NCBI GenBank assembly: GCA_018433765.1
Contig: JAHDQO010000001.1
Coordinates: 434,001-498,000 of the forward strand
Direction: 5' to 3'
From: Tissierellales bacterium
GTDB lineage: Bacteria; Bacillota; Clostridia; Tissierellales; Sedimentibacteraceae
Length of the DNA: 64,000 nt
Position numbers and translations under genes: made by a program. The notes under the pieces were generated by a model. That model was given only the letters and a program-made list of their open reading frames with translations. It ran no database searches and was not told the DNA's origin. Below are positions 2,890-31,184 of the stretch, one piece after another. Positions within the stretch are counted from its first letter, which is position 1; the number at the start of each line of letters is the position of its first letter.

Positions 2890-3194
2890 CTTATAAGGTA
2901 GACATGTATATTTTGGTAGGTGTATAATATGAGATATATTGAGTTAAAAGTACTCAAATATATGTTTAGGAACTTATTTGTAGTTCAAATATTTTTTATA
3001 TCTAGGTGGACATAGAAATGTATACCAAATAATTTGGTGTAATAATAAATTAGATATTTGATTAAGTGTTATAGGCGAATAAAAGAGCTTATATACAGAT
3101 TTCAAATGAGGTATATATTTATTAATTTTAATGTTAAAATAAGTTTTTTTATATACTATTTTAAATACTTTAAATATTAGTGAGGTTGGAGAAA
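2890..3194 (+). promoter_or_regulatory. Upstream region of the Hsp90-like/TIR cassette with palindrome
   Basis: This gap separates the TadC-like remnant from the inserted defence-type cassette. It holds a perfect inverted repeat, ACCAAAT-A-ATTTGGT (3024-3038), the only strong symmetric site here and a candidate operator. I see no clear RNA gene or small ORF. Confidence 0.3.
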
Positions 3195-5627: not shown

Positions 5628-5656
5628 ATCTAATAGATATAAAAATGGAGGTTTTT

Positions 5657-13087: not shown

Positions 13088-14869
13088 TTGAAAAAACAAG
13101 AAGGACAAAATGTAAATAAAACTCTATTAAGTATACTAACACCATTAGGTTTAGAAATAAAAAGAAATAGCCTTATAATAGGTGAGAATCTAGCAAGGTT
13201 ATACGGGATAGTAAAATACCCTCAAAAGGTTGACTATGGTTGGCTATCCAAAATAACAAACATAACAGGAACGATAGCAAGCATTACTTTTAATCCAGTA
13301 GACAGTAGTGATTTTATAGATAGTGTATCAAGCAGCATTATTCGTAATCGAAGTGATGCTGTATATAATAAAGACCCGCTTCTTCAAAGAAGAGCAGAAA
13401 GAGCAGCGGTTGACGGAGATAAGATGATAGAAAGTATAGATGGCGATAACCAATCAGTCGGTGCAATGAGTCTTAGTATAATGCCAATATCAAAAGATGA
13501 CAAGGATTTTGAAAAAGTGTGTAGGAAAACTCAAAGCCGCATAGCTTCATCTAAATGCAAAAGTAGAGTTTTAGCCAATATGCAAGAGCAAGCATTTAAG
13601 AATCTATCACCTTACTACAGCATAAATAAAAGCATAAATGAAGTATTACAAAGGGTAATGCCAATGAGTACATTTGTTGGCGGCTACCCTTTTTCTACAA
13701 GTGGATATAGCGACGGTAAGGGTTACTATTTTGCAAAAGACTCAAGTGGAGGTCTAGTTGTACTTGATACATGGAAACGTGGTGGAGATAGGACAAACAG
13801 TAACTTCACCATACTTGGAGTAGCAGGAGTTGGAAAATCTACAGTAGTCAAACATCTTGCTATATCAGAGTACATGAAAGGGACAAGGATATTATTTATA
13901 GATCCAGAAAGTGAATATCGAGACCTTTGTTTAGCATTAGATGGAGACTTAATAAATGCAGGCGGTGGAAGCAATGGAAGGATTAATCCACTACAAATAA
14001 GGGATATACCTGCAATTGATGAACAAGATGAAACAGAAGGACTTGGAGCAATGGCACTACATCTAAAAAATATTGACGTGTTTTTTAATTTATATATGAA
14101 TCTTACAGAAATACAGAAAGCCTTGTTAAAATCATCTTTAATAGAACTATATAATCAGTTTAAAATCTATTGGGATACCGATGTAAAACCATTAAAGAAT
14201 GAAGATTTTCCTATAATGAAAGACTTATATCAGTTAATCTTAGAAAAATCTAAGAAAGAATTAGAGTATAAAGAACTAGCGACACTATTAAAAGATATAG
14301 CAGTAGGTGGAGACTCTTTTTTATTTGGAGAACATAGTAGTATAAATGCACAGTCAAGATGCGTTTGTCTTGATACCTTTTCTCTTCAAAATGCAAGTGA
14401 TAACATCAAGAAAACACAGTATTTCAACCTACTAACATGGTGTTGGAACGAGATGAGCAAGGACAGAACAGAACCAGTATTATTGATAGCAGATGAAGCC
14501 TACCTGATGATTGACCCAAGAGTACCACAGTCGTTGGTATTCCTAAGAGATGTAGCAAAACGAGCTAGAAAATATGAAGCAGGGCTTGCTATAGTATCCC
14601 ATTCGGTAGTTGATTTCTTAGCACCACCCATCAAGATGTATGGACAAGCACTTCTTGATATTCCATGCTTTAAAGTGCTGCTTGGAACAGACGGAAAGAA
14701 CTTAACAGAGCTAAAAGAACTGTACAATTTAACAGATGCAGAAGAAGCATTACTAGCTCAGAAAAAGAGGGGAGATGGACTTTTAATGGTTGGTTCTAAA
14801 AGGTTACATGTTGATTTTGAAATCCCATCATATAAGTTTGAATACATGGGAAATAAAGGTGGTAGATAA
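13088..14869 (+). CDS. virB4: VirB4-like conjugation ATPase
   Basis: A 593-residue ATPase that powers type IV secretion/mating-channel assembly. Walker A GVAGVGKST lies near residue 243, followed by IDPESEYRDL. Walker B LLIADEAYLMID is near 466. Downstream the VirB4/TraE pattern AKRARKYEAGLAIVSHS is clear. A TTG start at 13088 follows GGGGAGG, 2 bp after the preceding gene. It is the best evidence that the Tad-like genes here belong to a conjugative or conjugation-derived element. No relaxase or coupling protein is visible in the window. Confidence 0.85.
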   Translation: MKKQEGQNVNKTLLSILTPLGLEIKRNSLIIGENLARLYGIVKYPQKVDYGWLSKITNITGTIASITFNPVDSSDFIDSVSSSIIRNRSDAVYNKDPLLQRRAERAAVDGDKMIESIDGDNQSVGAMSLSIMPISKDDKDFEKVCRKTQSRIASSKCKSRVLANMQEQAFKNLSPYYSINKSINEVLQRVMPMSTFVGGYPFSTSGYSDGKGYYFAKDSSGGLVVLDTWKRGGDRTNSNFTILGVAGVGKSTVVKHLAISEYMKGTRILFIDPESEYRDLCLALDGDLINAGGGSNGRINPLQIRDIPAIDEQDETEGLGAMALHLKNIDVFFNLYMNLTEIQKALLKSSLIELYNQFKIYWDTDVKPLKNEDFPIMKDLYQLILEKSKKELEYKELATLLKDIAVGGDSFLFGEHSSINAQSRCVCLDTFSLQNASDNIKKTQYFNLLTWCWNEMSKDRTEPVLLIADEAYLMIDPRVPQSLVFLRDVAKRARKYEAGLAIVSHSVVDFLAPPIKMYGQALLDIPCFKVLLGTDGKNLTELKELYNLTDAEEALLAQKKRGDGLLMVGSKRLHVDFEIPSYKFEYMGNKGGR

Positions 14870-14894
14870 GAATGAACAAAGGAGAAGAAAACTC

Positions 14895-15023
14895 ATGAAA
14901 AAATCAAATATGATAGAAATAATGATATACATAGTGCTTATCGTCTTTGGGGTGATAGCACTTTTCTTCTCTCAACCAAAAGAAATAAAATTTGAAATAC
15001 CAAAGCAGTTTGAAATAAATTAG
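14895..15023 (+). CDS. Small single-pass membrane protein
   Basis: A 42-residue protein with AAGGAG upstream of ATG 14895. It is one hydrophobic helix (IEIMIYIVLIVFGVIALFF) with a charged tail (SQPKEIKFEIPKQFEIN). It lies between virB4 and the CpaE-like gene. No known family; possibly an accessory membrane subunit. Confidence 0.5.
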   Translation: MKKSNMIEIMIYIVLIVFGVIALFFSQPKEIKFEIPKQFEIN

Positions 15024-15042
15024 CAAGATGGAGGGATAATAG

Positions 15043-16014
15043 GTGATACTTTACTTAACCAGTAAAAGGTATATGAATATACTGGATTTCTTACAAGATA
15101 CAGAAGAACTGCTTATAAAAAAGTATGTAGGTAAGTTTAATTTAAAGGAGTTTCTAGGAAAGTCTATCCAGCGATTAGGTCATGTAGAAACAATAGTAAT
15201 TGATAGGACATGTCTAACAGATACTAGTGAGGAGATAATTGATATAGTTAAAGCCTTTAAGTCATATAGTAGAATTAAGATAGTATTTTATATGGCAGAG
15301 CAAGACGAAAGCCTAGTCCATAAATTAATTGGACTAGGTGTTTTTAATATTATTACTGAATTAAAAGTTGAAGATTTAAAGAAAGAAATTAAGATTTGTT
15401 TATTTGAGGGTATGTCAGAAGGTTATATAAAAAGAAAAATAGGCTTGATATGTGATGAATTTAAAGAAGTGCCCTTTGACTTTAAGAGAAAGCAGATAAC
15501 GATAGGCGTAGTTGGTACTCAACATAGAGTAGGAACGACTACTATTGCTATGCAATTTGCTAGTTATTTGAAATCAATAGGAGCTATTGTTAGTTATATT
15601 GAAGCTAATAATAGTGGATATCTAAAGTTGATAGCTGATTATTATAAAATGAAGCAGAATGGAGATGGCTATTTTTATAACGGTATTTCTTATGAGAATA
15701 TAAATTTAATAAATAAAACAGTTTTTGACTTTATGATATATGATTTAGGGATACTGGATAGTAGAACAGTAAAAGGGTTTATAAACTGCAATATGAGAAT
15801 TGTTTGTGGAGGAAAGAAACCACATGAATTGCCATATTTTGAAAAAGGATTGATGATGATAAGAGGAATTGAGCATAGTATCATAATTAATGAATTTCAT
15901 CATTGTACTGAAGATAACGTATATGTGGCAATACCTTACGATAATATGCTGAATGAAAAATGTAACCAAGAGATATTTAGAGATATAACAGAAAACTATT
16001 TTGAAAGGATTTAA
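15043..16014 (+). CDS. CpaE/TadZ-like ParA-superfamily ATPase
   Basis: A 323-residue protein with an N-terminal receiver-like/atypical domain (~1-120) and a C-terminal P-loop ATPase of the MinD/ParA group. A divergent Walker A, GTQHRVGTTT, lies near residue 157, followed by IAMQFASYLKSIGAIVSYIE. CpaE/TadZ proteins position the Tad secretion machine. The conserved lysine is replaced, as often in TadZ-type proteins. The start is GTG 15043 behind GGAGG. Its presence ties the T4SS genes to the Tad genes at the left end. Confidence 0.7.
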   Translation: MILYLTSKRYMNILDFLQDTEELLIKKYVGKFNLKEFLGKSIQRLGHVETIVIDRTCLTDTSEEIIDIVKAFKSYSRIKIVFYMAEQDESLVHKLIGLGVFNIITELKVEDLKKEIKICLFEGMSEGYIKRKIGLICDEFKEVPFDFKRKQITIGVVGTQHRVGTTTIAMQFASYLKSIGAIVSYIEANNSGYLKLIADYYKMKQNGDGYFYNGISYENINLINKTVFDFMIYDLGILDSRTVKGFINCNMRIVCGGKKPHELPYFEKGLMMIRGIEHSIIINEFHHCTEDNVYVAIPYDNMLNEKCNQEIFRDITENYFERI

Positions 16015-16017
16015 AAG

Positions 16018-16419
16018 ATGAATAAAGGTGAAATAATTAATCTAGTATACAAATCAGATTTGAGCAAAAGAGCAATGCTTGTTATTCTATATTTAGTTAA
16101 TAGAGCTGATTCCAATATGACTTGTTTCCCAAGTGTGACACGAATAGCACAGGATTGTAGTATCAGTACAAGAACAGTTCAAAGAGCAATAAATGATCTG
16201 ATAGATGCAGGCTTTCTTAAACGAGAAAGTCGTTTTCATAAAAAAGGTGGCCAACGGTCTAGTTATTTTACAATTTTGAAAGGTGAAGTAAAAATTAGAG
16301 AAGTGAATTTGTTTGAGGAAGAGATTAGTGAGAAAGAGATGGAATATAATAGGAATCAATTTCCTAAAACATCAGTGTTCCAAAGATTAAAACAATCTCT
16401 CAGTGTCATTTTGTCATAG
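16018..16419 (+). CDS. HTH_36-type winged-helix protein
   Basis: A 133-residue protein with a helix-turn-helix typical of replication-initiator-like and mobile-element regulators: SKRAMLVILYLVNRAD, SVTRIAQDCSISTRTVQRAI, then a wing with GGQRSSYF. It begins 3 bp after the CpaE-like gene and is the last gene of the secretion element. It could control replication or transcription of the element. The C-terminal ~40 residues are charged and not recognised. Confidence 0.65.
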   Translation: MNKGEIINLVYKSDLSKRAMLVILYLVNRADSNMTCFPSVTRIAQDCSISTRTVQRAINDLIDAGFLKRESRFHKKGGQRSSYFTILKGEVKIREVNLFEEEISEKEMEYNRNQFPKTSVFQRLKQSLSVILS

Positions 16420-17010
16420 GGGCTGTGTAATGTTGACGTACCTTGAATTATACATCTCTATTGGTAGGGGATATTGAAAAAGAAATATAATTAGAGTGAA
16501 GTTATTAGTTATGTACTAACTAAAAATAGTAAGGTTATGTATTCTCATAATAACCTTTCTTATACATACATAGAAGATACAGCAGTTGTCAGAACTTTGA
16601 CAATAGTGGCAAATATTGAAATTTAAGTGTAAAATATTGGGGAAATATGTTATAATATGAAAGTAAAAAGAGTAATATTATGTCTAAAATAGGAAGTTAA
16701 AAAATACATAGCTTACGATTTTCAATAATATCACAGTTGAGACATTAATAAATAGTAAATTCAGCATTATTAGGAAGGAATACTTAAAAGAAATCATTTT
16801 ACTTGAGACTGGTTATTTGTAATTATAGGAACAAAATTAGTTGAAAGTAACATTACAAAAGATCTGCATAGTTGCCATTGATTAAAACTTTTGATTTTGA
16901 TTTATATAATATAGAAATCTTTATCTTAAGGATAATCAATATTACAGTTGTCTACTGTATTGGTGTGAATTAGTTCAAGAATGAATATATAGTCTGATAA
17001 TTTAAATATA
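16420..17010 (+). other. Long non-coding gap before the defence island
   Basis: No credible ORF. One hairpin (AAGGTTAT/ATAACCTT around 16530-16555) followed by a weak T-rich stretch could end the secretion-element transcript. A TATAAT-like hexamer occurs near 16650. The remainder is AT-rich with stops in all frames. Confidence 0.4.
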
Positions 17011-17065
17011 AACTTCTCATTATCCATATTTAGTACAAGTTTTTAATATCTATAATGGGAGTTGG
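17011..17065 (+). repeat. Covarying hairpin repeat, copy A
   Basis: The arms AACTTCTCATTAT and ATAATGGGAGTT are nearly complementary. They flank a conserved interior: CCATATT, then 20 bp later TCTATAATG. Two further copies (21276-21329, 29114-29167) are in the same orientation with the same spacing to within one base. Stem bases differ but mostly keep pairing. This copy lies 28 bp upstream of the OLD nuclease start. It has no T-run and so is not a terminator. Confidence 0.7.
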
Positions 17066-17092
17066 AATTTCATACAAGAAGAGGATAAAATT

Positions 17093-19168
17093 ATGTATTT
17101 AAAAAGTGTATTACTTGAAAATTTTAGGAAGTTTGGCGATAAGAATAATATTATAGAATTTGTTAGTGCAGAAGATTACAAGAAGGATTCTAATATTAAT
17201 ATAGCGCCTAAAACAACATTAATCATTGGAAAAAATAATAGTGGAAAAACAACAGTAATAGATGCTTTGTATAAGTTAATAAAGAATATCTCATTTAAAG
17301 CTATAGATTTTAACTTTGATTATCTTAAAAAATTACTGAATTTATACATCAGTGAAAATTTGGATAGTGAAAAATTAGAATTACCTACTTTGAAGTTTGT
17401 TGTTACAATTGGAATTGATAATGGTAAGGAAGACATATTAACTAATATTATTCCTTTTATGTCTCTTGAAGACACAGAAAAGTCAAAGATAGATATTATT
17501 GTTGAGTGGGCAGTAAGAGATCGTGAATTGTTTATAAAAGCTGTAAAAGAGTTTATTTCAAAAGATTTTAAAACCCAAAAATTTGATAGATTTTTAGAGT
17601 TGATTGATAAAACTGATTTTGAAATTTCATACTATAATTCAAATAGGGACAAAAAGAAAAATTTTTCTTTAAAAAAATTGATTGAAATAACACCAATTAG
17701 AGCAAATAATGTTAATAGTGAAAACTGTTTATCAGATGCATTTTCTAAGATAGTAGACTATAGATATTCTAACGTTTTAGACCCGCAAATCGCTAGCGAA
17801 TTAGATAGTCAAATTATTGATATTAATGATAGATTGACAAGAGATATAAGTATGCAACATACTAATAATATTAACTTATCTTTAAGCAAAATGATATTAG
17901 GCGAAAAATGTCAAGTGTTATTAAAATCTAATTTAAATTTTCAAAAATTGATTAAAAATGTACTTAAATATGAATATGTAGAAGGAAAAAATAATATACC
18001 AGAACAACAATTTGGATTAGGATATACTAATTTAATGATGATTATAGCTGAAATCATTACATATATGGAAAAATACCCAGAAACTTCATTTAACAGTCAA
18101 ATAAATTTGATTTCTATAGAAGAACCAGAAACCTTTATGCATCCTCAAATGCAAGAACAGTTTATAAAAAATATAAATGAGATGATTGCTTCTTTATTGG
18201 AAAATAATAAGAAACATGTAAATAGTCAGATTATTATAACAACACATTCATCACATATACTTAATAGTAAGATACATGAAGGTAATACTTTTAACAATAT
18301 TAACTATATTACTTGTAGTAATAATTATGCTAATTCAATATGTTTAAATGATGACATAATGATTGACTTTCCTAAAAATAATAAAAATAAAGATTGTTGG
18401 AAGCGAGAACAAAAACTTAAGTTTTTAAAAAAACACATTAAATATAAAATCTCAGAACTTTTTTTTGCTGACGCGGTTATATTTGTTGAAGGAATAACAG
18501 AGTATACATTGCTTCAACACTATTTAGATATAGATCCTCGTTTGAATAAATATTATATTTCAGTTATTTTAGTAAATGGAGCTCATGCGAGAGTTTATGA
18601 AAATCTCATTTATGCTTTAAGTATGCCTACTTTAATTATTACAGATATTGACATCAAAAGAGAAAAAATAGAAAAAGGTGAAAAAGATAAAAAGTGTCCT
18701 GGACAAGAACCGTTTTATATGCAAATGTGTTCAGATAAATTAAGAGGAAGAAAAACAACTAATAGTACATTATCATATTTTTATAAGAACGAATATGTTG
18801 AGAATATAATTAAGGGTGATTATAAGAAGCTAAATAACTTAATGATAATTTGTCAGAAAGATCCTATTGAAAATTATTATTCAACAAGTTTTGAAGAAGC
18901 TTTTATATTAACAAATTTTAAAAATGATATAGTTAGAAATGTACTAGAAAAAGTTAAGCCATATATATATATAGAGATTATTAGTAATGGGGGGGTTAGA
19001 CATAATTCATATAAGCTACAAAAAAAGTTGTCAAATTTGAAAAGTAATTTTGCAAATGAATTATTATATGAAATTTTGATATGTGATGATAAAAGCTTAA
19101 TTCCTCAATTACCTAAATACATTAAAGATGGATTACAATTTTTACAAGATAGATTAGGAGGTAATTAA
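17093..19168 (+). CDS. OLD-family ATPase-TOPRIM endonuclease (GajA-like)
   Basis: A 691-residue protein beginning LKSVLLENFRKFGD, as in ABC/SMC-type OLD proteins. Walker A GKNNSGKT is at 46-53. A signature-like segment GLGYTNLMMIIAEI precedes Walker B SIEEPETFMHPQ near 342. The C-terminal TOPRIM domain has IFVEGITE (~463) and TDIDI (~517), the acidic metal-binding residues. It is followed 1 bp later by a UvrD-type helicase, the pairing of class 2 OLD and Gabija systems. GajA proteins are usually shorter (~580 residues), so this is Gabija-like rather than certainly Gabija. Role in defence is inferred from the pairing. Confidence 0.8.
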   Translation: MYLKSVLLENFRKFGDKNNIIEFVSAEDYKKDSNINIAPKTTLIIGKNNSGKTTVIDALYKLIKNISFKAIDFNFDYLKKLLNLYISENLDSEKLELPTLKFVVTIGIDNGKEDILTNIIPFMSLEDTEKSKIDIIVEWAVRDRELFIKAVKEFISKDFKTQKFDRFLELIDKTDFEISYYNSNRDKKKNFSLKKLIEITPIRANNVNSENCLSDAFSKIVDYRYSNVLDPQIASELDSQIIDINDRLTRDISMQHTNNINLSLSKMILGEKCQVLLKSNLNFQKLIKNVLKYEYVEGKNNIPEQQFGLGYTNLMMIIAEIITYMEKYPETSFNSQINLISIEEPETFMHPQMQEQFIKNINEMIASLLENNKKHVNSQIIITTHSSHILNSKIHEGNTFNNINYITCSNNYANSICLNDDIMIDFPKNNKNKDCWKREQKLKFLKKHIKYKISELFFADAVIFVEGITEYTLLQHYLDIDPRLNKYYISVILVNGAHARVYENLIYALSMPTLIITDIDIKREKIEKGEKDKKCPGQEPFYMQMCSDKLRGRKTTNSTLSYFYKNEYVENIIKGDYKKLNNLMIICQKDPIENYYSTSFEEAFILTNFKNDIVRNVLEKVKPYIYIEIISNGGVRHNSYKLQKKLSNLKSNFANELLYEILICDDKSLIPQLPKYIKDGLQFLQDRLGGN

Positions 19169-19169
19169 A

Positions 19170-21239
19170 ATGGATACTAAAAATTTATCTATTTCCTCTG
19201 AAAATAAAATTAAAGAAAAACAAGTTTTTGAAAGGATTTCGCGATGTATTGATGCGAAAAAAAGCATGGTTTTTGATGCTGGAGCAGGTTCAGGAAAAAC
19301 TTATTCATTAGTACAATCGTTAAAATACATTATAAATCATTACGGTAAAATTCTGAAAAAACATAATCAAAAAATCTTATGTATCACATATACCAACGTT
19401 GCAGTTTTTGAGATTAAAGATAGATTGGGAAATACTGGTTTAATAGAAGTATCTACTATACATGATTGTGTATGGGGTATCATAGAACCGTATCAAAAGC
19501 AGCTTGTAGAAATTCATTGTGATAAGTTACAACATGAGATTGATACAATAGAAGAAGCACTAGAAAGTGAAAAGTGGGCAGAAAAATACAGATATTTATC
19601 GGAAGATGAAAAGAATGCTTTTTTGACAATAATGAACAAAAAAAAAGAAGATTACTTTAAGCATAAAAATGATAAATCAGCCCCATTCAAGGCTTCGTTA
19701 CCTGAAATTTTAAATACCTACCCTAAACTTATGAGTAATGTTGGTAATTTTAAAAAAACAGTGGATAGTCTATTTAAAATTATAAAATATAAAAAAGTCA
19801 TTAAAAAAATAGAAGGTAAGGAAAGTAAATTTAATAAAGTAAAATATGATGCTCGATTCAACAATGATAAGCTTGAGTCAATGAGAATTAGTCATGATAC
19901 TTTATTAGAATATACAGAAAAGCTTGTTGAGCAAAGTGACCTACTAAAACAAATTATTTGTGATAGATATCCATTTGTTTTAGTAGATGAATATCAAGAT
20001 ACAGATTCCAAAGTGATCAACACATTAAGTGTTATAGATGAATTTTCTAAAATGATTCAACATGATTTTTTTGTGGGGTATTATGGGGATGTAAAGCAAA
20101 ATATTTATGATACCGGTGTTGGAAGTGATTTTTACAATATTCATAAAGGATTAGAGAGAATAATAAAAACATTCAATAGACGATCAGCAAAAGAAGTAAT
20201 TTTTATTGCTAATAAAATTAGAAATGATGATGTAAAACAAAAATCGATATATGAGAATTTTCCAAAAGGTAGTGTTTCTTTTTATAATATGAATATAGAA
20301 CGACAAGAATTTATTAAGGCTCACATAAAAAAGTGGAACATCACAAAAAAAAATAAGTTACATTGTTTTGAGTTAACAAATGAGCTTGTCGCTCAACAAA
20401 GTGGCTTTACAACCATTTATAATTTTTTTAAAAATTCAAGATGGTATAAGCTAGGAAGAAATTTTGAATTTTTACGTGAACATGTATTGAGTTTAGATGT
20501 TAAGAAATTAGGAATTGTACAGAAGTTACTCTTTAGAATTTTAAATTTTAAATTCAAAATAAACCAAAATGAAACAATGGTTTCAGATGTTGTTGTTGAA
20601 AAAGCTACAAAAGATATAAACATTTTAAAGTTAAGAGAACTTGTAGAAAAATTCAGAAAAATTAAAGGAGAGACACTCAAAGATTATATTGAGAATCTTT
20701 TTTCGAAGTATCACAATGAAGATGAGAAGTATGATAAATGTTTGGAATATATAATAGGTGAAGAAATTAAATCATACTCGGATGTTGAAGATTTCATCTT
20801 AAATCAATTGTATTTTTTTAATGAACAAGAAGAACATTCTGATGAGTATATTCAAGAAAGCAAGAATGCCGTAACTAGCTTTCTTGAAACCAATATGAAT
20901 GAATTTAATTTGTGGCATGATTTTATCATAGACAGGAGTGAAAGTGACACTATTTATCATACCTATCATGGAACAAAAGGTCGAGAGTTTGATAATGTGA
21001 TTATTTTTATGACTTCCAAATTTGGTAGAGATAATAAATATTTTAGTAGATTACTTAAAGTGTTGGCAGTGAAAGATGAGGTGGCAGAAAGAAATACTAA
21101 GACAGAAGAAGCGAGAAACTTGCTTTATGTTGCGGTGACAAGAAGTATAATAAATTTAAGCATACTTTATCTAGATGATATAGATGATGCTAAAGCACAA
21201 GTTGAACATGTATTTGGTGAAATAAAATATGATATATAA
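19170..21239 (+). CDS. UvrD/Rep-type helicase partner (GajB-like)
   Basis: A 689-residue SF1 helicase. Motif I DAGAGSGKT is near residue 37, Ia ITYTNVAVFEI near 70, motif II LVDEYQDTD near 271, III YGDVKQNIYDTG near 309, V HGTKGREFDNVI near 601, VI NLLYVAVTR near 651. The stop of the OLD gene and this ATG are adjacent, so the two are coupled. GajB proteins are about 500 residues; this one has extra helical insertions between motifs Ia and II and between III and V. With the OLD nuclease it should form a DNA-sensing/cleaving complex (family knowledge). Confidence 0.8.
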   Translation: MDTKNLSISSENKIKEKQVFERISRCIDAKKSMVFDAGAGSGKTYSLVQSLKYIINHYGKILKKHNQKILCITYTNVAVFEIKDRLGNTGLIEVSTIHDCVWGIIEPYQKQLVEIHCDKLQHEIDTIEEALESEKWAEKYRYLSEDEKNAFLTIMNKKKEDYFKHKNDKSAPFKASLPEILNTYPKLMSNVGNFKKTVDSLFKIIKYKKVIKKIEGKESKFNKVKYDARFNNDKLESMRISHDTLLEYTEKLVEQSDLLKQIICDRYPFVLVDEYQDTDSKVINTLSVIDEFSKMIQHDFFVGYYGDVKQNIYDTGVGSDFYNIHKGLERIIKTFNRRSAKEVIFIANKIRNDDVKQKSIYENFPKGSVSFYNMNIERQEFIKAHIKKWNITKKNKLHCFELTNELVAQQSGFTTIYNFFKNSRWYKLGRNFEFLREHVLSLDVKKLGIVQKLLFRILNFKFKINQNETMVSDVVVEKATKDINILKLRELVEKFRKIKGETLKDYIENLFSKYHNEDEKYDKCLEYIIGEEIKSYSDVEDFILNQLYFFNEQEEHSDEYIQESKNAVTSFLETNMNEFNLWHDFIIDRSESDTIYHTYHGTKGREFDNVIIFMTSKFGRDNKYFSRLLKVLAVKDEVAERNTKTEEARNLLYVAVTRSIINLSILYLDDIDDAKAQVEHVFGEIKYDI

Positions 21240-21583
21240 AAGATTGCATTGAATGAGTTTTTATACTGTAGAGTAATCTTCACATTATCCATATTAGAGA
21301 AAGAACCTAACGTCTATAATGTGTAGTTGATAATATAAGAATAGCTAGTTTAAATTTATCTATTATTAATAATTTTTAGTTATATACCTTAAAAAATGAA
21401 GAAGTTCCATCAGTTCATCTTCAAAATTTAGAATACCATATGGTGATTTTAATAAATTATGCATTTGAATACAAAAATTCAAGTACTGTAAAATTAATTC
21501 AACTAGTCAAGAGCATATTGATTGGTATTAAATTAAAAATATTCAACAATAAGGGAAAAATAACAATGAAAGGAAGTATAAAT
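21240..21583 (+). other. Inter-module gap containing hairpin copy B
   Basis: Between the Gabija-like pair and the metallophosphoesterase-Hsp90 gene. The main feature is hairpin copy B. The remaining ~250 bp upstream of ATG 21584 is AT-rich. An in-frame ATG at 21440 would add 48 residues but lacks a good ribosome-binding site. Confidence 0.4.
21276..21329 (+). repeat. Covarying hairpin repeat, copy B
   Basis: The arms CTTCACATTAT and ATAATGTGTAG pair; the CACATTAT/ATAATGTG part is perfect. The interior CCATATTAG and GTCTATAATG match copies A and C, with the same distance between them. It lies 37 bp after the helicase stop and separates the two defence modules. Confidence 0.7.
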
Positions 21584-24500
21584 ATGTCATTCTTTAGAAT
21601 TCTTCATTTATCAGATATACATATTGGGAAAACTTATAAGTCATCTGAAGATATTGCTTATAAAGTAATTTCAGATATTGATCAAAATGGATTGTGTTCA
21701 TTAAGAAGTGTTGTTGTTACTGGAGATATTTTTGATGGTCAAGTAAAAGACAGTGACAGACTAATAAATGAAGCTATTACTTTTTTTGAGATTTTGTTAG
21801 AGGAAATAAACCTTAATCAAGCCAATAGTAAAATATCTAAGGAAGATTTTATATTTGTTCCGGGGAACCATGATTTAATAAGGGTAGATAACGAAGAAGA
21901 AAAATGGGCTAAATATAAAAAGTTTTTATCAAAATTCTATGGCACTATTCCTAAATATTATAACGTAAAAAATTATTCAGTATTTAGACCTTATGATAAA
22001 GAGAAAATAGTTTTTCTTGGTTTTAATTCTTGTCAAATTGAAAAGAAAAAAATTTTCAATAAAAAATATTTAAGTATATTAGAAGAAAATATCAGTGATA
22101 ATAAATTGCTAGCTAATGGAATTATTAAAAAAGATTTGTTAAAAATATTAGAAAAAGAAGAAGCAGATGAATATAAAGATTTTGGTAATATATCGTTGAG
22201 TCAAATTGCGGATATGAGAAGAAAAGTGAAAGGTTTAGATGAATATAATGTAGTAGCATTATTTCATCATCATTTTTATCTTTTTCCTGAAGTGGCACGA
22301 GAGTTTGGTGATTCTAGCTTAGTTAGAAATTATACAGATTTAGTTCGTTTTTTAAAATATATGAATGTTAAAACTGTGCTGCATGGTCACAAACATTTTG
22401 ATCTAGAGCGCCCTTTTATTACAGATGATTATTACAATACAACAGAAAGTATAATTGATGTTTTTGCTGGTGGCTCAGTTGGTACTAATAGAAAAGATAG
22501 ACATACATTTAGTGTGATTGATTTTTATGAAAAAAAAGATGATATTAAATTACTACAAAACAAATTTATTTATAATGAGGAAGAACTAGAACCAATTGCT
22601 AGAAAACAAATACCACCACAAAATCTAGCAAATAGAATTGTTAAATTATTAGAAATGTTAAAAACAATAAATCCACAAGCATATATAGATTATACTAAAT
22701 CGATTGATAAAATATTTAAGATATATAATACATGTAATGAAATTACCAATTGGGTAAGTGAAGCTATTACTGGATTTAATGAAGTTTATAAATATCTAGA
22801 CGATGATTTCAGAAATATTTTATTTCTTTTGTATGCAATAAATTATAGAACGTTATCCTATAAAGCAATTGTAGGAAAAGAAAATTCATACTTCGAATCA
22901 TCTTCTGTTATATTAAAAAAGCTATTTATCGATCAATTGAAAACAAACATTTTTTGTCTGTCAGTAGATGATTATCATTCATTGTTTGGTATAAAAAAAC
23001 TAAATGATTTAGCAAATAAGTGTGACAAATTATTAAATAAGTGTACCAACAAAACAACTCAATTATATCTTGCATTTAGCATGGTAGGTGTATTTTTTGC
23101 TGACTTATATTTGGTGCTAACAGAGTATGCTGATGATTTTAAAGAAAGTATTAAATATAAAATCAATATAAAAATAGAAGAAAATAAATTTCATGAAAAT
23201 GTTCCAGCACCGAGAATAGTACTCCAATCTGATGCTGATAGAAGAAGTGCTTATGTGCAACTTTTATGTAATGAGGCAACTGCACATAAAATGGCTGTTT
23301 TGTTTATTAAAGAATTTGATCTAATGATTAATAAATTTGAAGATTATTTTAAACTGATAGGTTTAAAATTATATTATCTAATTCCTAAAATAGATAAAGA
23401 TAACATGAAAAATACGTTGGATAATTATAATTTTGAAGCATATATACCTACTTTGCTTCCATTACTAACAGGAGATAATATTTATAAGTGTAAAGTTGTT
23501 TTTTCAAGAGAATTAATACAGAATTCTATTGATGCAATAGCTGTAAGAGAAGAAAAGGGAAAATGTGATTTTCCGAAGAAGATTTTTATAGAAATTGGTA
23601 AAGATAAAAACAAGAAACGTTATTTTAAAATTAAAGATAATGGTACAGGCATGGATAGATATAAAATTGAAAGATATTTTACTAGTATAGGAAGAAGTTT
23701 TTATTCTGGAGATGAATATGAAGATTTAAATATTAGTTACAGACCTATAAGTAATTTTGGTATAGGTTTTTTGTCGTCTTTTATGGTATGTCAAGAAATA
23801 GGTGTCAGAACAAAATATTATTTAGAGAATAGTGAAGGCTTGAAACTTCACATTCCTAATTATGACGGTTGCTTTTTTATTGAACGTGATGAAAATACTG
23901 AAGTTGGTACAGAGTTAAAATTATATTTAAATAATAGTATAAGTTCAGATGAAATTGTTGATTATATTAAAAAAGTAATGCTAGATATAAAATATAGTAT
24001 TAATATTAAAATTATAAATGAAAAGGAAGAAAAAGAGATTAATATTCACGCACATCAAATAAGGAAAAATAATACAGAATCAAAATTAAGATTTTTTATT
24101 CCATTTAATGAAAAAGGTGAAGTGCTCAATATTGAGTATGAAAAAGAAGTGATTAATGGTAATTTTATTGATAAATATGAATATGGATTATTGATACAAT
24201 CAATTAAGCAAAAACAAAATTATAGTAATCAAAAAATACTTAATGCTGGTATTTTAGTAGAGCAAACAAATTTGAGCTATTTATTTGGAAAAGAGTTTGA
24301 TAAAATTTATAATCGTTTCAATGAATATTTTTATAATGATATAATCATAAATTTTCCTGCAAATTGGGTACAGATAGATGTTTCAAGAGAAAAAATTACA
24401 GGATTTACTCAGTTGATTAAAAAATCTAACAGCAAAAACTCTAAAAATCTTATTGGGGAAAAAATTGCGGAATGCTTATATAATCAAATACTATGTTTTT

Positions 24501-25159
24501 TGGAATATAGCAAGAAAACAGATATTAGGTTACCAATAATATATTTACAAAAAGTTATACAATATGCAATTAGTTTTTGTGGACAAAATAGGGTGGATAT
24601 TCGTAAAAAAATAGACAAATTGAAATATATATTAAATATTAAATTTACTGATAAAAGTGTAATTTATGAAATAAAACATAGAGAAAACATTAAACAAAGA
24701 AAAGTTATTTCTTATGAAAATGATGAAGCTAAGTTAATTTGTAATAAATTGAAAAATAATTTAAAAATTAATTTTAATCCTCGAAATAAACATATTCAAG
24801 ATAATAAAAGAAACAAGCAAGAAGATTTAAGATATTTATATAGACTATTTGAATCAACTATTATTGAAGAAAATTTTATATATACAGAAAAGAAAATATA
24901 TAAATTATTGAATGAAATAGGTTTGAAATTAAGGGTTAAAAGTAGTAATATTAATTATTTATTCACACTTTTACTTTTAATGATATCAGATGATGATTTT
25001 ATAAAAAAAGAAACCGCATCAATTATATCATTTATTGAGATTTTTATTATGCAAACTTTAAATATTAGCAATGTTGAGAAAGGTATAAATAGTATATCTG
25101 TGAACTATGATGATTTAGTTATGTTTTTCAACAATAAACTTAATAATGATAAAAAATAA
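21584..25159 (+). CDS. Metallophosphoesterase-Hsp90-like ATPase fusion
   Basis: A 1191-residue protein. Residues 1-300 form a calcineurin-like phosphoesterase with all metal motifs: DIHIG (~11), GDIFDG (~47), GNHD (~94), HHH (~227), GHKH (~268). A helical region follows. A GHKL ATPase comes next, with N-box RELIQNSIDAI (~641), DNGTGMD (~686) and NFGIGFLSSFM (~725), then an Hsp90-like middle region. The C-terminal ~250 residues are AT-rich helical sequence of unknown role. ATG 21584 follows AAGGAAG. The combination resembles no well-characterised system I know. Its neighbours are a Gabija-like pair and a nuclease-STAND gene, so a defence role is likely (inference). Confidence 0.75.
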   Translation: MSFFRILHLSDIHIGKTYKSSEDIAYKVISDIDQNGLCSLRSVVVTGDIFDGQVKDSDRLINEAITFFEILLEEINLNQANSKISKEDFIFVPGNHDLIRVDNEEEKWAKYKKFLSKFYGTIPKYYNVKNYSVFRPYDKEKIVFLGFNSCQIEKKKIFNKKYLSILEENISDNKLLANGIIKKDLLKILEKEEADEYKDFGNISLSQIADMRRKVKGLDEYNVVALFHHHFYLFPEVAREFGDSSLVRNYTDLVRFLKYMNVKTVLHGHKHFDLERPFITDDYYNTTESIIDVFAGGSVGTNRKDRHTFSVIDFYEKKDDIKLLQNKFIYNEEELEPIARKQIPPQNLANRIVKLLEMLKTINPQAYIDYTKSIDKIFKIYNTCNEITNWVSEAITGFNEVYKYLDDDFRNILFLLYAINYRTLSYKAIVGKENSYFESSSVILKKLFIDQLKTNIFCLSVDDYHSLFGIKKLNDLANKCDKLLNKCTNKTTQLYLAFSMVGVFFADLYLVLTEYADDFKESIKYKINIKIEENKFHENVPAPRIVLQSDADRRSAYVQLLCNEATAHKMAVLFIKEFDLMINKFEDYFKLIGLKLYYLIPKIDKDNMKNTLDNYNFEAYIPTLLPLLTGDNIYKCKVVFSRELIQNSIDAIAVREEKGKCDFPKKIFIEIGKDKNKKRYFKIKDNGTGMDRYKIERYFTSIGRSFYSGDEYEDLNISYRPISNFGIGFLSSFMVCQEIGVRTKYYLENSEGLKLHIPNYDGCFFIERDENTEVGTELKLYLNNSISSDEIVDYIKKVMLDIKYSINIKIINEKEEKEINIHAHQIRKNNTESKLRFFIPFNEKGEVLNIEYEKEVINGNFIDKYEYGLLIQSIKQKQNYSNQKILNAGILVEQTNLSYLFGKEFDKIYNRFNEYFYNDIIINFPANWVQIDVSREKITGFTQLIKKSNSKNSKNLIGEKIAECLYNQILCFLEYSKKTDIRLPIIYLQKVIQYAISFCGQNRVDIRKKIDKLKYILNIKFTDKSVIYEIKHRENIKQRKVISYENDEAKLICNKLKNNLKINFNPRNKHIQDNKRNKQEDLRYLYRLFESTIIEENFIYTEKKIYKLLNEIGLKLRVKSSNINYLFTLLLLMISDDDFIKKETASIISFIEIFIMQTLNISNVEKGINSISVNYDDLVMFFNNKLNNDKK

Positions 25160-25294
25160 AATGATATAGTTTAGTTCGTATCAAACCTATTTCTTAATAA
25201 GTAAATAGTATTGTTATTTTTACAATCTTTATTAAACAAAGATATAAATGAGATATAGATTTATAAAATTTACATATGTAAAAGAGGAGAAATT

Positions 25295-28200
25295 ATGAGT
25301 AATATTTATGAAGTAACTAATGAGCATATAGAAAAATTAAACGATTTACAACTTACAAAGATATTATCTAAACTTATGTACTTAGAAGCGAATAAATACA
25401 ATATAGATAAGTCTAAAGTTAATTGTTCTTTAAAAATAACAGTATCAGATGGAGGAGAAGATGCTTCAATAAAATGGAATAACGGTCCACAGAGTACAGA
25501 TTGGTTTAAGTGTAGATATAATTTATTTCAATGTAAATCAACTCGAATGGGACCTGCAAAGTGTAAGGAAGAACTATTACAGAAGAAAAAAAGTGGTGAA
25601 GTTGTCAGAAAACTAAAGCCAAGGGTAGAGAAAGTTTTTGGAGAGAAAGGTAGTTACATATTATTTTATTATAAATCATTGAATATGGAAGGAGTAAAAG
25701 AGAGAATAGCAAAGTTTAGAGAAGCATTAAAAGAAGCTAAAAAAGACTATTATAAAACAGCTTCTATTCATATTTATGATGCAAATAAAATTGCTGCATG
25801 GGTAAATAATTATTTAGCTGCTATAATTGAAGTATTAAGATATAATGGAGTATATTTACCAGCAAATTTGTTAACATGGGATGAATGGAGTAAATACAAA
25901 GAACATAGTAAATATAAATTTGAAACAGATGAAAAAATAGAATCACATATAAAACAATTAAGAAAACACTTTAAAGATGGAGAGAATAAGATTGCAAGAA
26001 TCGTAGGATTATCAGGATTAGGTAAGACTAGAATAGCACTGGAGACTTTTAGAAATAATGATACATTACAAAATAATTTTATAAATAAGAAAGTTGTTTA
26101 TATTGATGCTATTTACTGCGAAAATGAAATAGTACCATTAGTAGTTGAGTTTAGAAGAAATGAAATTAGTGGAATACTAGTAGTTGATAATTGTAGTATA
26201 GAATTGCATAAAAGACTAGTTAATGAAATAAAGCATAAATCATCTAAACTAAATATATTAACATTAGATTATAATTTAGAAACAATATCATGTGATTATC
26301 CTATAATTGAAATAAAACAAGTATCAACAGATGTTGTAAAAAAAATTATAAAGCAGTCATATAATAATATACCTGATGATGATATAAATAGAATTGCTGA
26401 ATTTGCACAAGGGTTTCCTCAGATGGCTGTATTAATATCTGAGGCAAGACTAAATGGCGAAGATACTTTAGGAATATTAAATGATACTGAAATAGCTAAT
26501 AAGTTACTTTGGGGGAGAGATAATCCAGATGATCTTAAACTTGAAGTGATAAAGGCATGTTCAATATTTGAAAATTTTGGTTTTTTTGAAGATAAGGTTG
26601 AAGAAAGAGATTATATAGCAGAAATAATTTGCGATGATAGAATAAACAAAGATAATTTTTATAGGTATACTAAATATTTTATTAAAAAAGGTATTTTGGA
26701 TAAAAGAGGAAGATATTTAGCAGTAACACCATTACCATTAGCAATTAGATTAGCAGCACAATGGTGGAAAGAATGTAGTCCTGAAAAAGGTAAAAAGATA
26801 ATATTATCGGATATGCCTAATAATATGGTTGATTTTTTATGTAATCAAATAAGTAAATTACATTTTGTTGAAGAAACAAGAGAATTAACAGGAGATTTAT
26901 GTAGTAAAACAAGCCCTTTTGGCCAAGCGGAAGTATTGACTACTAACAGAGGTGGACGTATCTTCCGCGCATTATCAAAAGTTAATCCTCAATCAGCATC
27001 AATAGCAATATATAATGCATTCAAAAAATATTCGGTAGAAGAGCTTAAAAAGATTACTATTGAAAGAAGGGAACTAGTATGGGCTTTAGAAAATTTATGT
27101 TTCTGGAAAAAAACATTTGATAATTCAGCTAGAACTTTATTAATGTTAGCAGCTGCTGAGAATGAAAGTTGGGCTAATAATGCTACAGGAATTTTGACTC
27201 AGCTATTTCATATTTTTCTTTCTGGTACACAAGCAGAACCTAAACAAAGGTTAAATATTGTAAAAGAAGCGTTAGTTAAAAATGAAGAAGAATATAAAAT
27301 TTTAGCAATAAAAATATTAGGAAGTGCAATCGTAACTGAAGGTTTTGCAAAAATGTCAGGTCCAGAAAAACAAGGAAGTAGACCAACTAGTGAAGAGTGG
27401 AAACCTGCACTATGGAAAGAAGTTTTTGATTATTGGGAAGAGGCACTTATGTTGTTAACTAATATAGCAATACAAAAAAATAAATTAGGAGTAATGGCAA
27501 GAAAGGAGATAACTGGTGGTTTTAGAGGATTAGTTCAATATGGACGTATAAATGCTTTAGATAGTTCTCTAAATGTAATAGGAAAAGAATTTAATTATAA
27601 TTGGTTTGAATTAATTGATTCAATTAAGAATACAATAAAATTTGAATCTTCAAATATGCCAAGAGAGGGAATCTATAAATTAAATGAATGGTTAAATTTA
27701 TTCATGCCTAATCTATTAAAAGATAAATTAAAATTAATTGTAAGTTTACCAAATTGGGAATATGAAGAAAATGAAAAAGGACATTATATAAATGTTGCGG
27801 AGATAAGATGCAAAGAATTTGCAAAAGAGTGTATAGAAAATATTGAGGAATTATATGAAAATTTATTTGTTATATATTGTGGTGAACAAAGACAAGGATA
27901 TAATTTTGGTAAAGAATTAGGATTACTTTGTAATAAACCGCAAGTTTTTATTAACAAAAGCATTGAATGTTTAGTTGATAATGAAGACCCTAATTTAGTA
28001 GTTCTAGGAGGTTTTTTAAATTCATTAAAAATAAAAGATAATAAGATTGTAGAAAATACTTTGGATTATATAGTTAGCAATAAAAAATTAAAAAAACATT
28101 TAGTTTATTTAACTAGTATGATTAATCCTGTTGATAATGATATAGATAGAATTCAAATGCTATTTAATGATAAAGAAAATATTATATCAAGTTTTAGATA

Positions 28201-29086
28201 TTTATCTTTTGGAAAGTGTATTGATAACGTTAGTGTAGAATGTATAAGAAATTTATGTATTTCGTTAGTAAAATATAGTATAGAAGGTAAATTAATAGTG
28301 CTGGATATAATTAATAGTTGTGATAACAAGAGAGATAGATTAAAAGATATATTAATTAGTATAATTTTTGATATAGATATAATCAATAATTTAAATAAAT
28401 TTTCTCAAATGGATAAACATCACTGGGAAAAGAATTTAAAACTATTGTTAAAAGAAGATGATGGAAAAAAACATGCTATTAAGTTATATAAGATAATTAT
28501 ATATAGTTTGTTTACCTATAAAAATGATTTAGATAAAGATAAACAATATGAAATAGTTTTAAAAATATTATTAGAAAATTATCCTAAAGAAATATGGAAA
28601 TTACTAGTTGGCGATTTGGTAAAGACTAGTAAAGAAGAAACATGGAAACTTAAGGAATTATTACGTGCTCGTTGGCTGTATATAAATGATGATAGTACTC
28701 TTATAGAATTAATTAATCAAAAAGATGTAATAAATGACATTAATAGGAATGGTATAAAATTAGCTTTAATAATATCTAAAATAATAAGGAAATATGATTA
28801 TAGTAGTGATAGTCCTAGATTTAATTTGATAATTAGATATATTATAGAAAATTATGGTGAAAATAACAAACACATATTAGATAATATATCTTTTAATATG
28901 GGACATAAATGTTGGGTTGGGTCTAGAATTCCTTTGTATGAAGAAAAAATAAAAGTATTAAGTGAGTATGTTGATTATAATAAAATTAACATACAGAATT
29001 GGGCCAGAGAGAGTATAGATAAAATAAATAAAGCTATAGATATAGAAAAAATAAGAGAAGAAGAAAGGGACAAGGGTATACTTTAA
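25295..29086 (+). CDS. Nuclease-STAND NTPase (Avs-like)
   Basis: A 1263-residue protein. The N-terminal ~190 residues contain GGEDASIKW (~53) and FQCKST (~79), the spaced acidic-QxK pattern of Mrr-like PD-(D/E)xK nucleases. A P-loop GLSGLGKTR lies near 238 and Walker B VVDNC near 296, followed by a winged-helix-like region. The C-terminal ~700 residues are helical repeats, expected to be the ligand sensor. This nuclease-STAND-repeat layout is that of Avs-type antiphage NTPases, which recognise phage proteins and then cut DNA. It lies 135 bp after the MPE-Hsp90 gene, in the same hairpin-bounded block. Confidence 0.7.
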   Translation: MSNIYEVTNEHIEKLNDLQLTKILSKLMYLEANKYNIDKSKVNCSLKITVSDGGEDASIKWNNGPQSTDWFKCRYNLFQCKSTRMGPAKCKEELLQKKKSGEVVRKLKPRVEKVFGEKGSYILFYYKSLNMEGVKERIAKFREALKEAKKDYYKTASIHIYDANKIAAWVNNYLAAIIEVLRYNGVYLPANLLTWDEWSKYKEHSKYKFETDEKIESHIKQLRKHFKDGENKIARIVGLSGLGKTRIALETFRNNDTLQNNFINKKVVYIDAIYCENEIVPLVVEFRRNEISGILVVDNCSIELHKRLVNEIKHKSSKLNILTLDYNLETISCDYPIIEIKQVSTDVVKKIIKQSYNNIPDDDINRIAEFAQGFPQMAVLISEARLNGEDTLGILNDTEIANKLLWGRDNPDDLKLEVIKACSIFENFGFFEDKVEERDYIAEIICDDRINKDNFYRYTKYFIKKGILDKRGRYLAVTPLPLAIRLAAQWWKECSPEKGKKIILSDMPNNMVDFLCNQISKLHFVEETRELTGDLCSKTSPFGQAEVLTTNRGGRIFRALSKVNPQSASIAIYNAFKKYSVEELKKITIERRELVWALENLCFWKKTFDNSARTLLMLAAAENESWANNATGILTQLFHIFLSGTQAEPKQRLNIVKEALVKNEEEYKILAIKILGSAIVTEGFAKMSGPEKQGSRPTSEEWKPALWKEVFDYWEEALMLLTNIAIQKNKLGVMARKEITGGFRGLVQYGRINALDSSLNVIGKEFNYNWFELIDSIKNTIKFESSNMPREGIYKLNEWLNLFMPNLLKDKLKLIVSLPNWEYEENEKGHYINVAEIRCKEFAKECIENIEELYENLFVIYCGEQRQGYNFGKELGLLCNKPQVFINKSIECLVDNEDPNLVVLGGFLNSLKIKDNKIVENTLDYIVSNKKLKKHLVYLTSMINPVDNDIDRIQMLFNDKENIISSFRYLSFGKCIDNVSVECIRNLCISLVKYSIEGKLIVLDIINSCDNKRDRLKDILISIIFDIDIINNLNKFSQMDKHHWEKNLKLLLKEDDGKKHAIKLYKIIIYSLFTYKNDLDKDKQYEIVLKILLENYPKEIWKLLVGDLVKTSKEETWKLKELLRARWLYINDDSTLIELINQKDVINDINRNGIKLALIISKIIRKYDYSSDSPRFNLIIRYIIENYGENNKHILDNISFNMGHKCWVGSRIPLYEEKIKVLSEYVDYNKINIQNWARESIDKINKAIDIEKIREEERDKGIL

Positions 29087-29113
29087 TAATTTTATAAAAA
29101 ATAATAAAATTAC

Positions 29114-29167
29114 AACTTTCCATTATCCATATTAGTATAAGTAAATAATGTCTATAATGAGAAGTAA
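29114..29167 (+). repeat. Covarying hairpin repeat, copy C
   Basis: The arms AACTTTCCATTAT and ATAATGAGAAGT pair with two mismatches. The interior CCATATTAGTATAAGT and GTCTATAATG match copies A and B. It lies 27 bp after the STAND gene and closes the second module. No T-run follows. Confidence 0.7.
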
Positions 29168-29274
29168 AATTAGGAATTAGTTAATTGTGAGTAGAGCTAT
29201 TTGAACTTTGGATGCAGTACGGTAAACTGCTATAAGTATAGTTATTTATATAATATACAAGGGGTAATAATATA

Positions 29275-29491
29275 TGATTATTGAAAACAAACAATATAGA
29301 AGGTAAAAAACTAAAATGGATACTTCGTTGTCCAACAAAAGATGATGCATTTGAATTATCTAAATTAAAAGTTAAAATTGATGGAGAAACAGAAAATCTT
29401 AATAGGAACTGGTGAAGCTCTATTAACACTAGAAGACTTTGAAAAAATTATTTATGAAGTTTTAACGATAGAAAAAACATACTCTATATAA
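29275..29491 (+). pseudogene. Frameshifted GNAT acetyltransferase N-terminal fragment
   Basis: Across three frames the sequence reads MIIEN, then KTNNIEGKKLKWILRCPTKD, DAFELSKLKVKIDGETENLN, then GEALLTLEDFEKIIYE before a stop. The RCPTKDDAFELSKLKVKIDGE segment is typical of the start of GNAT acetyltransferases. The acetyl-CoA-binding part is absent. Clearly a decayed fragment. Confidence 0.6.
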
Positions 29492-29639
29492 ATCATATAG
29501 TATACATATAATCTTTTGGGAAAGTAAAAGTGATTACTGGTCATATGGGATATACAAGAAAAAAAGACACAAAACCTGTGGTTTAAAGAAAAGTATTATT
29601 GATATCTGTTGAAGATTAGAAACAGATCAGATTGAAATA

Positions 29640-30156
29640 AGTTATAAAATACATAGAATATCATGATATAAATAATATTGAAGAAGGACGAGTTATTTTT
29701 GTATTTGATTTACTATATAAAGAGTATTCAAGTAAATTGTTAGAAAGAAAGGAAGCAATGAAGCATGTGAAAAAGAATATAAAATTTGATAATGTGAAGA
29801 TTGTTTATTCAATTCTATCAGAATTACTTAAGAAAGAGATTTTTAGTTACTATTCATTTGCACATGAAGTAAGGCTTTCCATTATCTTTTTAAATCAAGA
29901 TAAATGTAAGGAAATTGAGAAGATATTTATAAAACAACCAAGAAGTAGTGTAGGTTTTACAATATTTAATAAATTTAATCATAATCCAGTTCTTGCTATT
30001 GAAGTAGATGGTACGGAGTTTCATTTAAATAATCCAGCTCAGTTAGTAAAAGACAAAAAGAAGGATGGTATATTTGAAAAATATGGTATACCAATATTAC
30101 GACTAGCAACCAATCAAGCTAGTACCATAGTAGTAGTAAAATATTATAAGCATTAG
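29640..30156 (+). pseudogene. C-terminal DUF2726-type nuclease domain, remnant of a large helicase
   Basis: The open frame includes VIFVFDLLYKEYSSKLLERK and later VLAIEVDGTEFHLNNPAQLV, then DKKKDGIFEKYGIPILRL. This is the DUF2726/DUF559-like nuclease-fold tail found after SF1 helicase domains in large proteins. The helicase part is missing, with stops just upstream. An in-frame ATG at 29758 could give a 132-residue product, but a remnant is more likely. It is a second sign that this side of the defence island has been eroded. Confidence 0.55.
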
Positions 30157-30208
30157 CTAGTTAAAAGCCAATAATATGTAATTTGCTTTAATTAGTACAA
30201 AAATAATA

Positions 30209-30709
30209 CTATTTCAAGAAATCTCCCTTATATTCAACAGGAATATTAACCTTATATCCCCTGTTATTCATCCCATGTAGCTTGATGGATAACAGGTTTC
30301 TATCTACATACAGTATTTTTGCACATGTAAAAAAATCATAACCAGATTTTAGAATTTGAATAACCTTATTATCCTCTATAAGAATTTCAGCAGTAAACAA
30401 ATTAGCTTCATACTCAGCTATATTAGTCATGTTATATATATCACTCTTTGTAAAAAACTGAGTCATATTTCTATGTAATTGATCATGACCAAGTTCATGA
30501 CAAGCTACGATTTTAGCCATGGTTTCATCAAGCCCATTATCAATACATATAAATCTATTTCTCTGGCTAACAGTATAGAAGCCCTTCAAATCTTCTAAAT
30601 ATTTAAATTTAACATATATATTAAGTTTTTCAGCTAATACAAACGGATTACTTGTTTTGTATTTTTTCTTTAATGAGCAAGCTAGCTCGTGTATATAATC
30701 TGTTCTCAT
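30209..30709 (-). CDS. ImmA/IrrE-type metallopeptidase
   Basis: A 166-residue protein with the zinc-protease motif HELGHDQLH at about residues 91-99 and a downstream glutamate (EYEANLFTAE). This family (COG2856) cleaves a partner XRE repressor to induce mobile elements, as ImmA does to ImmR in ICEBs1. The putative repressor lies directly upstream on the same strand. The pairing points to control of a mobile element, though no integrase is in view. Confidence 0.8.
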   Translation of the reverse strand: MRTDYIHELACSLKKKYKTSNPFVLAEKLNIYVKFKYLEDLKGFYTVSQRNRFICIDNGLDETMAKIVACHELGHDQLHRNMTQFFTKSDIYNMTNIAEYEANLFTAEILIEDNKVIQILKSGYDFFTCAKILYVDRNLLSIKLHGMNNRGYKVNIPVEYKGDFLK

Positions 30710-30736
30710 AGTGTTGTCCCTACCCCTGTAAATGTA

Positions 30737-31153
30737 TTATTCCATGCCTTTATCTTTAAGATATTTTTTTGGAGTATATTTTTTATTTATTATCTTACTT
30801 TCCCAATAGATTTCTTGCATAGCTTGAAATACAGCATCCTTACTTTCTTGACTTAGTTCTCCGCCTGCAAATAAAGCTCTAGTTTCATTAACAATCTCTT
30901 CAGCTCTTTTTTTACCCTTTGAACCTCCTTTGTCAGATGCTTCTAAAATAAATATTTCTTCTTCAGATAATAAAAAGCTCATGGTTGTATCTAATGCTTT
31001 GACCAGTTTAGCAAGGTTTTTTTTACTAGGCATATTTACTCCAGACTCATAATATTGTATCTGTCTCAACGAAACACCAATAGATTTTGCTAGTTCTTTT
31101 TGGGTTAAATTTTTTGCCTCTCTTGTTTTTGCTAGTTTTTCGGGAAATTTCAC
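30737..31153 (-). CDS. XRE-family repressor (ImmR-like)
   Basis: The N-terminal helix-turn-helix is clear: LTQKELAKSIGVSLRQIQYY near residues 17-36, then YESGVNMPSKKNLAKLVKAL. A C-terminal region with AEEIVNETRALFAGGELS may be the site of ImmA action. GTG 31153 has GAGGTG at 7-bp spacing; an upstream ATG (31171) lacks one. The gene is transcribed away from a sigma-A-type promoter and a perfect palindrome that it probably binds. Confidence 0.75.
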   Translation of the reverse strand: MKFPEKLAKTREAKNLTQKELAKSIGVSLRQIQYYESGVNMPSKKNLAKLVKALDTTMSFLLSEEEIFILEASDKGGSKGKKRAEEIVNETRALFAGGELSQESKDAVFQAMQEIYWESKIINKKYTPKKYLKDKGME

Positions 31154-31184
31154 AATTGTACACCTCTTCAAAAATTTATTTATG

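Follow-up and report, generated by a model that had tools for sequence, protein, structure and literature searches.

The three short elements that bracket two defence modules in the window (the whole 64,000-nucleotide stretch of DNA that was analysed) very probably belong to a cassette system of Clostridia, in which they are the sites of site-specific recombination by an Xer-derived tyrosine recombinase. Sequence comparison revealed the sites, arrays of such sites in other genomes, the anatomy of the cassettes, homology that is bounded by sites, presence or absence of cassettes between relatives and a recombinase linked to the arrays. A cassette role of the sites is likely, and the original prediction that they may be boundaries of exchangeable defence cassettes was supported by their recurrence, by a clean absence between copies and by the linked recombinase clade.

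The site triplet and its surroundings in the window

As predicted, the window contains three same-strand copies of near-equal length (all +, 54 to 55 bp), and they bracket two defence modules, the Gabija operon followed by a PD-Lambda-4-type pair. The features are as follows.

16673..16698, + strand: possible decayed half-site (ATGTCTAAAATAGGAAGTTA); tentative, as chance gives half-sites of such quality
17011..17065, + strand: site e1, 55 bp; left boundary of the Gabija cassette; R'' AACTTCTCATTAT, R' ATAATGGGAGTT
17093..19168, + strand: GajA of Gabija (OLD-family, AAA + TOPRIM); PADLOC GajA E=2.9e-194; Pfam OLD-like_TOPRIM
19170..21239, + strand: GajB of Gabija (UvrD-like helicase); PADLOC GajB E=2.2e-226
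21276..21329, + strand: site e2, 54 bp; 3' site of the Gabija cassette, 36 bp past the gajB stop
21440..25159, + strand: metallophosphoesterase + HSP90-like ATPase protein, first gene of the second cassette; Pfam Metallophos, HATPase_c_3
25295..29086, + strand: PD-Lambda-4_A-like large protein; PADLOC E=2.2e-85
29114..29167, + strand: site e3, 54 bp; 3' site of the PD-Lambda-4 cassette, about 28 bp past the stop of the PD-Lambda-4_A-like gene

The gap between e1 and the start of gajA is 28 bp. The shared interior and its spacing of 26 to 27 bp both hold, with CATTATCCATATT and TCTATAATG invariant in e1, e2 and e3, and a 3' T-run is absent from all three copies, as had also been claimed. The pattern CATTATCCATATT-N16-20-TCTATAATG had three matches in the 4.19-Mb genome, all of them e1 to e3, compared with 0 for a reversed-pattern control, and a looser site pattern yielded one extra match genome-wide, inside an ordinary gene. 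The fusion protein at 21440-25159, the partner of the PD-Lambda-4_A-like protein, had no PADLOC match.

The stems had been described as covarying, and this part of the prediction failed: two-sided pair changes and the covariation score were at the level of column shuffles for both 6 and 19 sites. One stem position was unpaired in 12 of the 19 sites. The arms resemble each other because both retain a single sequence, AACTTCCCATTAT and its inverse ATAATGGGAAGTT, and two boxes bound by a protein would produce such symmetry. RNA folding of the + strand was modest (z values of -1.7, -0.8 and -3.0), predicted DNA folding was weak (-1.8 to -8.2 kcal/mol, and mostly not below that of shuffled sequences), and no Rfam match was found for the sites. 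With Rfam empty and covariation absent, we rejected an RNA-family reading, and the suggestion that the elements are RNA elements of the defence genes lost its support. A simple promoter reading was rejected because no consistent -35 box was found.

Elsewhere in the window, at 3180-6619, an AlbA/Schlafen + TIR protein is encoded after a Sacsin/HSP90-like ATPase gene, and the two are likely another defence pair, one that the sites do not bracket. Just before e1 (13088-16419), a TraG-like P-loop ATPase and a RepL/HTH_36-type protein suggest a decayed conjugative or plasmid-like element, and past e3 (29181-31171) lie a decayed coding sequence, a DUF2726 protein and then a minus-strand M78 peptidase/HTH pair.

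Site arrays, cassettes and their probable exchange in Clostridiaceae

When 84,980 species genomes were scanned with the site pattern, 51 loci matched, and model scores singled out one of these, in Clostridium brassicae; the other 50 were judged to be chance matches by model scores and, for the best two, also by gene context. All four model (R1) matches of the C. brassicae genome lie on one strand within 10 kb, among unrelated genes. Counting weaker forms, this genome has about ten sites over about 25 kb, but sites were detected by sequence models and weak ones near the threshold may be chance. When this region was compared by blastn with the window plus 20 kb upstream, only the sites matched. 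A model built from six sites and run on 207 Clostridiaceae genomes identified more genomes with sites, and their neighbourhoods contained arrays of several same-strand sites; copy number was a handful per genome, clustered in arrays. Pattern matches in viral contigs were rejected, as they had no model score and a stricter pattern matched none, and one site, queried by blastn against plasmids and phages, had matches at chance level only. The arrays of three genomes (L080 370-4027, L107 4969-8575 and L114) share a chromosomal locus beside a DnaB_2-type replication gene, which is a possible insertion hotspot.

The position of the sites relative to genes was uniform. Of 40 sites, drawn from the window and from 27 array loci, every one was intergenic, compared with 28% of random positions, and all 40 were on the strand of the preceding gene, compared with 48% of random positions, where sites of one array are not independent. 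Since each site lies 3' of its gene or operon in gene orientation, a cassette comprises the gene(s) and the 3' site. This head-to-tail arrangement of a gene plus a 3' palindromic site was seen in Clostridiaceae arrays, and in one of them (L110) every interval contains a single gene that is followed 3' by a site (at 2135, 2807, 4624, 5598, 8920, 10001 and 11280, some of them weak). The strong sites of an array share one strand rather than alternating. At one extreme of size, the sites are 30-bp palindromes whose two R boxes are 6 bp apart, as in a duplex Xer core; at the other are forms of 45 to 75 bp that consist of two half-cores, R''-L'' and L'-R', with an internal CC/CT mismatch. Among the array genes were matches to nSTAND3/SIR2-like proteins, DUF4365, a restriction helicase, a PD-T4-6-like kinase, HNH effectors, Abi_alpha, NACHT, AbiJ, FRG and AAA + DUF4435, while several had no match at all. 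Thus, recurrence beside unrelated defence genes, which had been put forward as a sign of cassette boundaries, was found in the Clostridiaceae arrays.

Two C. brassicae sites (L081 2009-2098 and 5548-5637) are followed by a near-identical leader of about 90 bp with a ribosome-binding site and a start codon; in the first of these leaders the reading frame ends immediately and a different gene comes next, which resembles a junction within the leader. A transposon encoding an IS91-like transposase and a different tyrosine recombinase was found inside sites of three arrays (L110 11290-13750, L161 5172-7632 and L148 from 16662); its ends resemble the site (TATTCTTATAAT), and it may target sites.

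Comparisons between genomes located the ends of homology at sites. C. brassicae (14420-18446) and G167 (L109 4781-757) have a 4-kb cassette in common with 77% identity, whose homology begins beside one site and stops at the next in both genomes, with unrelated flanks. The relatives G104 and G105 are 95 to 97% identical around one locus at which G105 carries a 19.2-kb array between two copies of the site region (AATGTCTATAATGGG) and G104 has a single copy. The clean absence of a module between copies, the other sign put forward, was therefore observed. In G101 the left flank is common with this locus and divergence begins at the site. A second G104 difference of about 13 kb also stops at ATGTCTATAAT; it includes an insertion sequence and is therefore weaker evidence. 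Overall, 8 of 26 homology-block ends were within 60 bp of a strict site, compared with 5% for random positions, and 4 of the 26 were near sites on both genomes, compared with 0.08%. Other indels, and many ends of blocks, lie away from sites, and block boundaries of this kind could also arise if the repeats recombined homologously. One homology links the arrays to the window itself: in G117 (Clostridiaceae), a homologue of the window gene at 25295-29086 starts 23 bp past a site (L168 1427-1468, E=1e-4), with 83% nucleotide identity over 1.5 kb up to the contig end. The gene before this site is unrelated and channel-like, and is not the metallophosphoesterase-HATPase gene of the window.

The linked recombinase and the proposed working of the sites

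The C. brassicae array contains a frameshifted tyrosine recombinase. The last 63 residues split the corresponding proteins of the 207 genomes into a host-type Xer, present in nearly all of the genomes, and an array class, present in about a dozen, whose members are mostly 90 to 100% identical over these C-terminal 63 amino acids and whose genes adjoin arrays. Many array recombinases are pseudogenes, and intact ones were found in G169, G104, G032 and G165. In a tree, the array recombinases formed one clade apart from host Xer (100/100), and the catalytic set of P0001 is complete (R162, K184, H253, R256, H280 and Y289). In most copies a ATAATGGGAAGTT-like half-site lies about 40 to 100 bp past the recombinase stop, on the 3' and not the 5' side. 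Thus, the earlier suggestion that the elements are sites of a recombinase now has a recombinase clade that is genetically linked to the arrays. Its members scored 204 to 213 bits with the XerC model and 80 to 87 bits with IntI (TIGR02249), below the cut-off of 265, and the nearest solved chains in the PDB were XerA, XerC-like and XerD. The catalytic R to HxxR distance is about 96 residues in XerD and about 131 in IntI1; in the array recombinase it is 91 residues, which is Xer-like, and the integron-specific insertion is absent. No array recombinase was found in viral contigs, and plasmids and phages had only relatives with less than 60% identity.

The genome of the window has five Phage_integrase matches. 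No array-clade recombinase was found among them, so the window array may be immobile. One intact protein, with 41 to 56% identity to the array recombinase, adjoins a LysM-like gene and is the probable host Xer. A tyrosine-recombinase remnant near a prepilin-peptidase-like gene upstream of the window, 26 kb before e1 (C13:425035; L083 11035-11139) was rejected as an array recombinase, with only 55% identity over 31 residues to the array clade. Because the window's genome was the only one with sites among 249 searched within its order (strict filters), the two window cassettes are probably an imported orphan array, and Clostridiaceae are the probable source.

We infer that the array recombinase acts at the sites and recombines them. 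Each site has two inverted 13-bp boxes for the putative recombinase (R'' AACTTCCCATTAT and R' ATAATGGGAAGTT), which enclose a short spacer and about 4 to 50 bp of variable inner sequence, and the shortest sites are 30-bp dif-like cores (12+6+12 bp). The recombinase would bind the R boxes, with strand exchange in the centre beside R' (ATGTCT|ATAAT), and single cassettes or blocks of several could thereby enter, leave or change places between sites. The cassettes, which mostly carry anti-phage defence genes, are joined head to tail, and the window array comprises two of them (Gabija with e2 and the PD-Lambda-4 pair with e3) behind e1.

The form in which the DNA would be recombined could be a folded strand or a duplex; these readings are rivals of each other and both are sub-cases of the cassette-site explanation. 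As in integrons, the recombinase might act on an attC-like single-strand hairpin with R''/R' and L''/L' paired and the central spacer unpaired, to which we assign somewhat less than an even chance. The composition of the long sites, two half-cores with the CC/CT mismatch, is consistent with this, as are the likeness of the 30-bp sites to simple cores and the single fixed orientation of sites relative to genes, whereas the weak predicted DNA folding, mostly at shuffle level, the absence of covariation and a recombinase lacking the IntI profile and insertion argue against it. Equally probable is a dif/Xer-type exchange in which dif-like cores are used double-stranded, as in dif modules, and perhaps by host Xer too. 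The Xer-like recombinase (XerC model, 213 bits; nearest solved chains XerA, XerC-like and XerD) and the minimal 30-bp palindromic sites point to this mechanism, and the R box may resemble the XerC arm of Firmicutes dif; sites of 45 to 75 bp with conserved interiors, however, are not needed for dif-type exchange. A search of eight genomes for the Firmicutes dif consensus had no match, and the host dif was not located.

Explanations outside site-specific recombination are far less probable. The sites are always 3' of a same-strand gene, TATAAT in R' resembles a -10 box and e1 is 28 bp before gajA, as might be seen if they were 3' RNA hairpins, terminators or promoters of the defence genes. We consider this very unlikely, since a T-run, an Rfam match, covariation and a -35 match are all absent and since it leaves both the homology ending at sites and the linked recombinase unexplained; a secondary promoter role of the sites is possible. 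Least probable is a MITE- or REP-like mobile repeat that landed by chance in defence islands, with exchange by ordinary homologous recombination, which would fit short imperfect palindromes in several copies and block exchange by homologous recombination but not the few copies per genome, their clustering in arrays, the fixed gene orientation and 0 of 40 sites inside genes.

Comparison with integrons and dif modules

For the cassette system as a whole, there is about an even chance that it is an independently evolved, integron-equivalent platform for defence cassettes, in which an Xer-derived recombinase captures and shuffles anti-phage genes at sites of its own, some simple (attI-like, 30 bp) and some doubled (attC-like, 45 to 75 bp). 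If so, integron-like gene capture would have a second, Xer-derived origin. In Firmicutes, integrons are reported to be nearly absent, and little is established about how defence islands come together. Cassettes delimited by sites would account for the exchange of whole defence modules, and the sites would allow cassette boundaries to be read directly and undescribed array genes to be nominated as defence systems. We found no account of such a system in Clostridia in a literature search that covered few subscription papers and no preprints. Mobile elements are already known to be linked with simple Xer-related recombinases (PMC8138268).

Complete integrons are reported to be extremely rare in Firmicutes, in which IntegronFinder identified a single complete one and a few CALIN (PMC9024848). 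The Clostridia arrays resemble integrons and CALIN in the head-to-tail arrangement of genes with 3' palindromic double sites, the dedicated tyrosine recombinase, the orphan arrays without an integrase, the defence cargo and the gain and loss at sites. In contrast to integrons, the recombinase scores as Xer-like (IntI 87 bits versus the 265-bit cut-off) and lacks the integron-specific insertion, both attC R boxes (RYYYAAC...GTTRRRY) were present in 0 of 40 sites, in most copies a half-site is 3' of the recombinase gene, and the cassettes are often large or multi-gene. The 30-bp and 45- to 75-bp sites parallel attI and attC, respectively, but they also fit a dif-like system. Because the IntI profile failed and the attC boxes were found in 0 of 40 sites, we describe the system as integron- or dif-module-like in its working rather than as a member of either group.

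Neighbouring pdif sites alternate in orientation. In dif modules, which involve pdif sites and XerC/XerD and occur on Acinetobacter plasmids, accessory modules bounded by Xer-type sites of about 28 bp are shuffled (PMC13141974, PMC6449649). The Clostridia cassettes are likewise delimited by sites, probably of Xer type; unlike those of dif modules, these are directly oriented 3' of genes, are mostly longer doubled palindromes and are linked to a recombinase clade apart from host Xer. Gabija and PD-Lambda-4, which are carried by the two window cassettes, are systems already known, and it is their bounding by sites that is the present finding.
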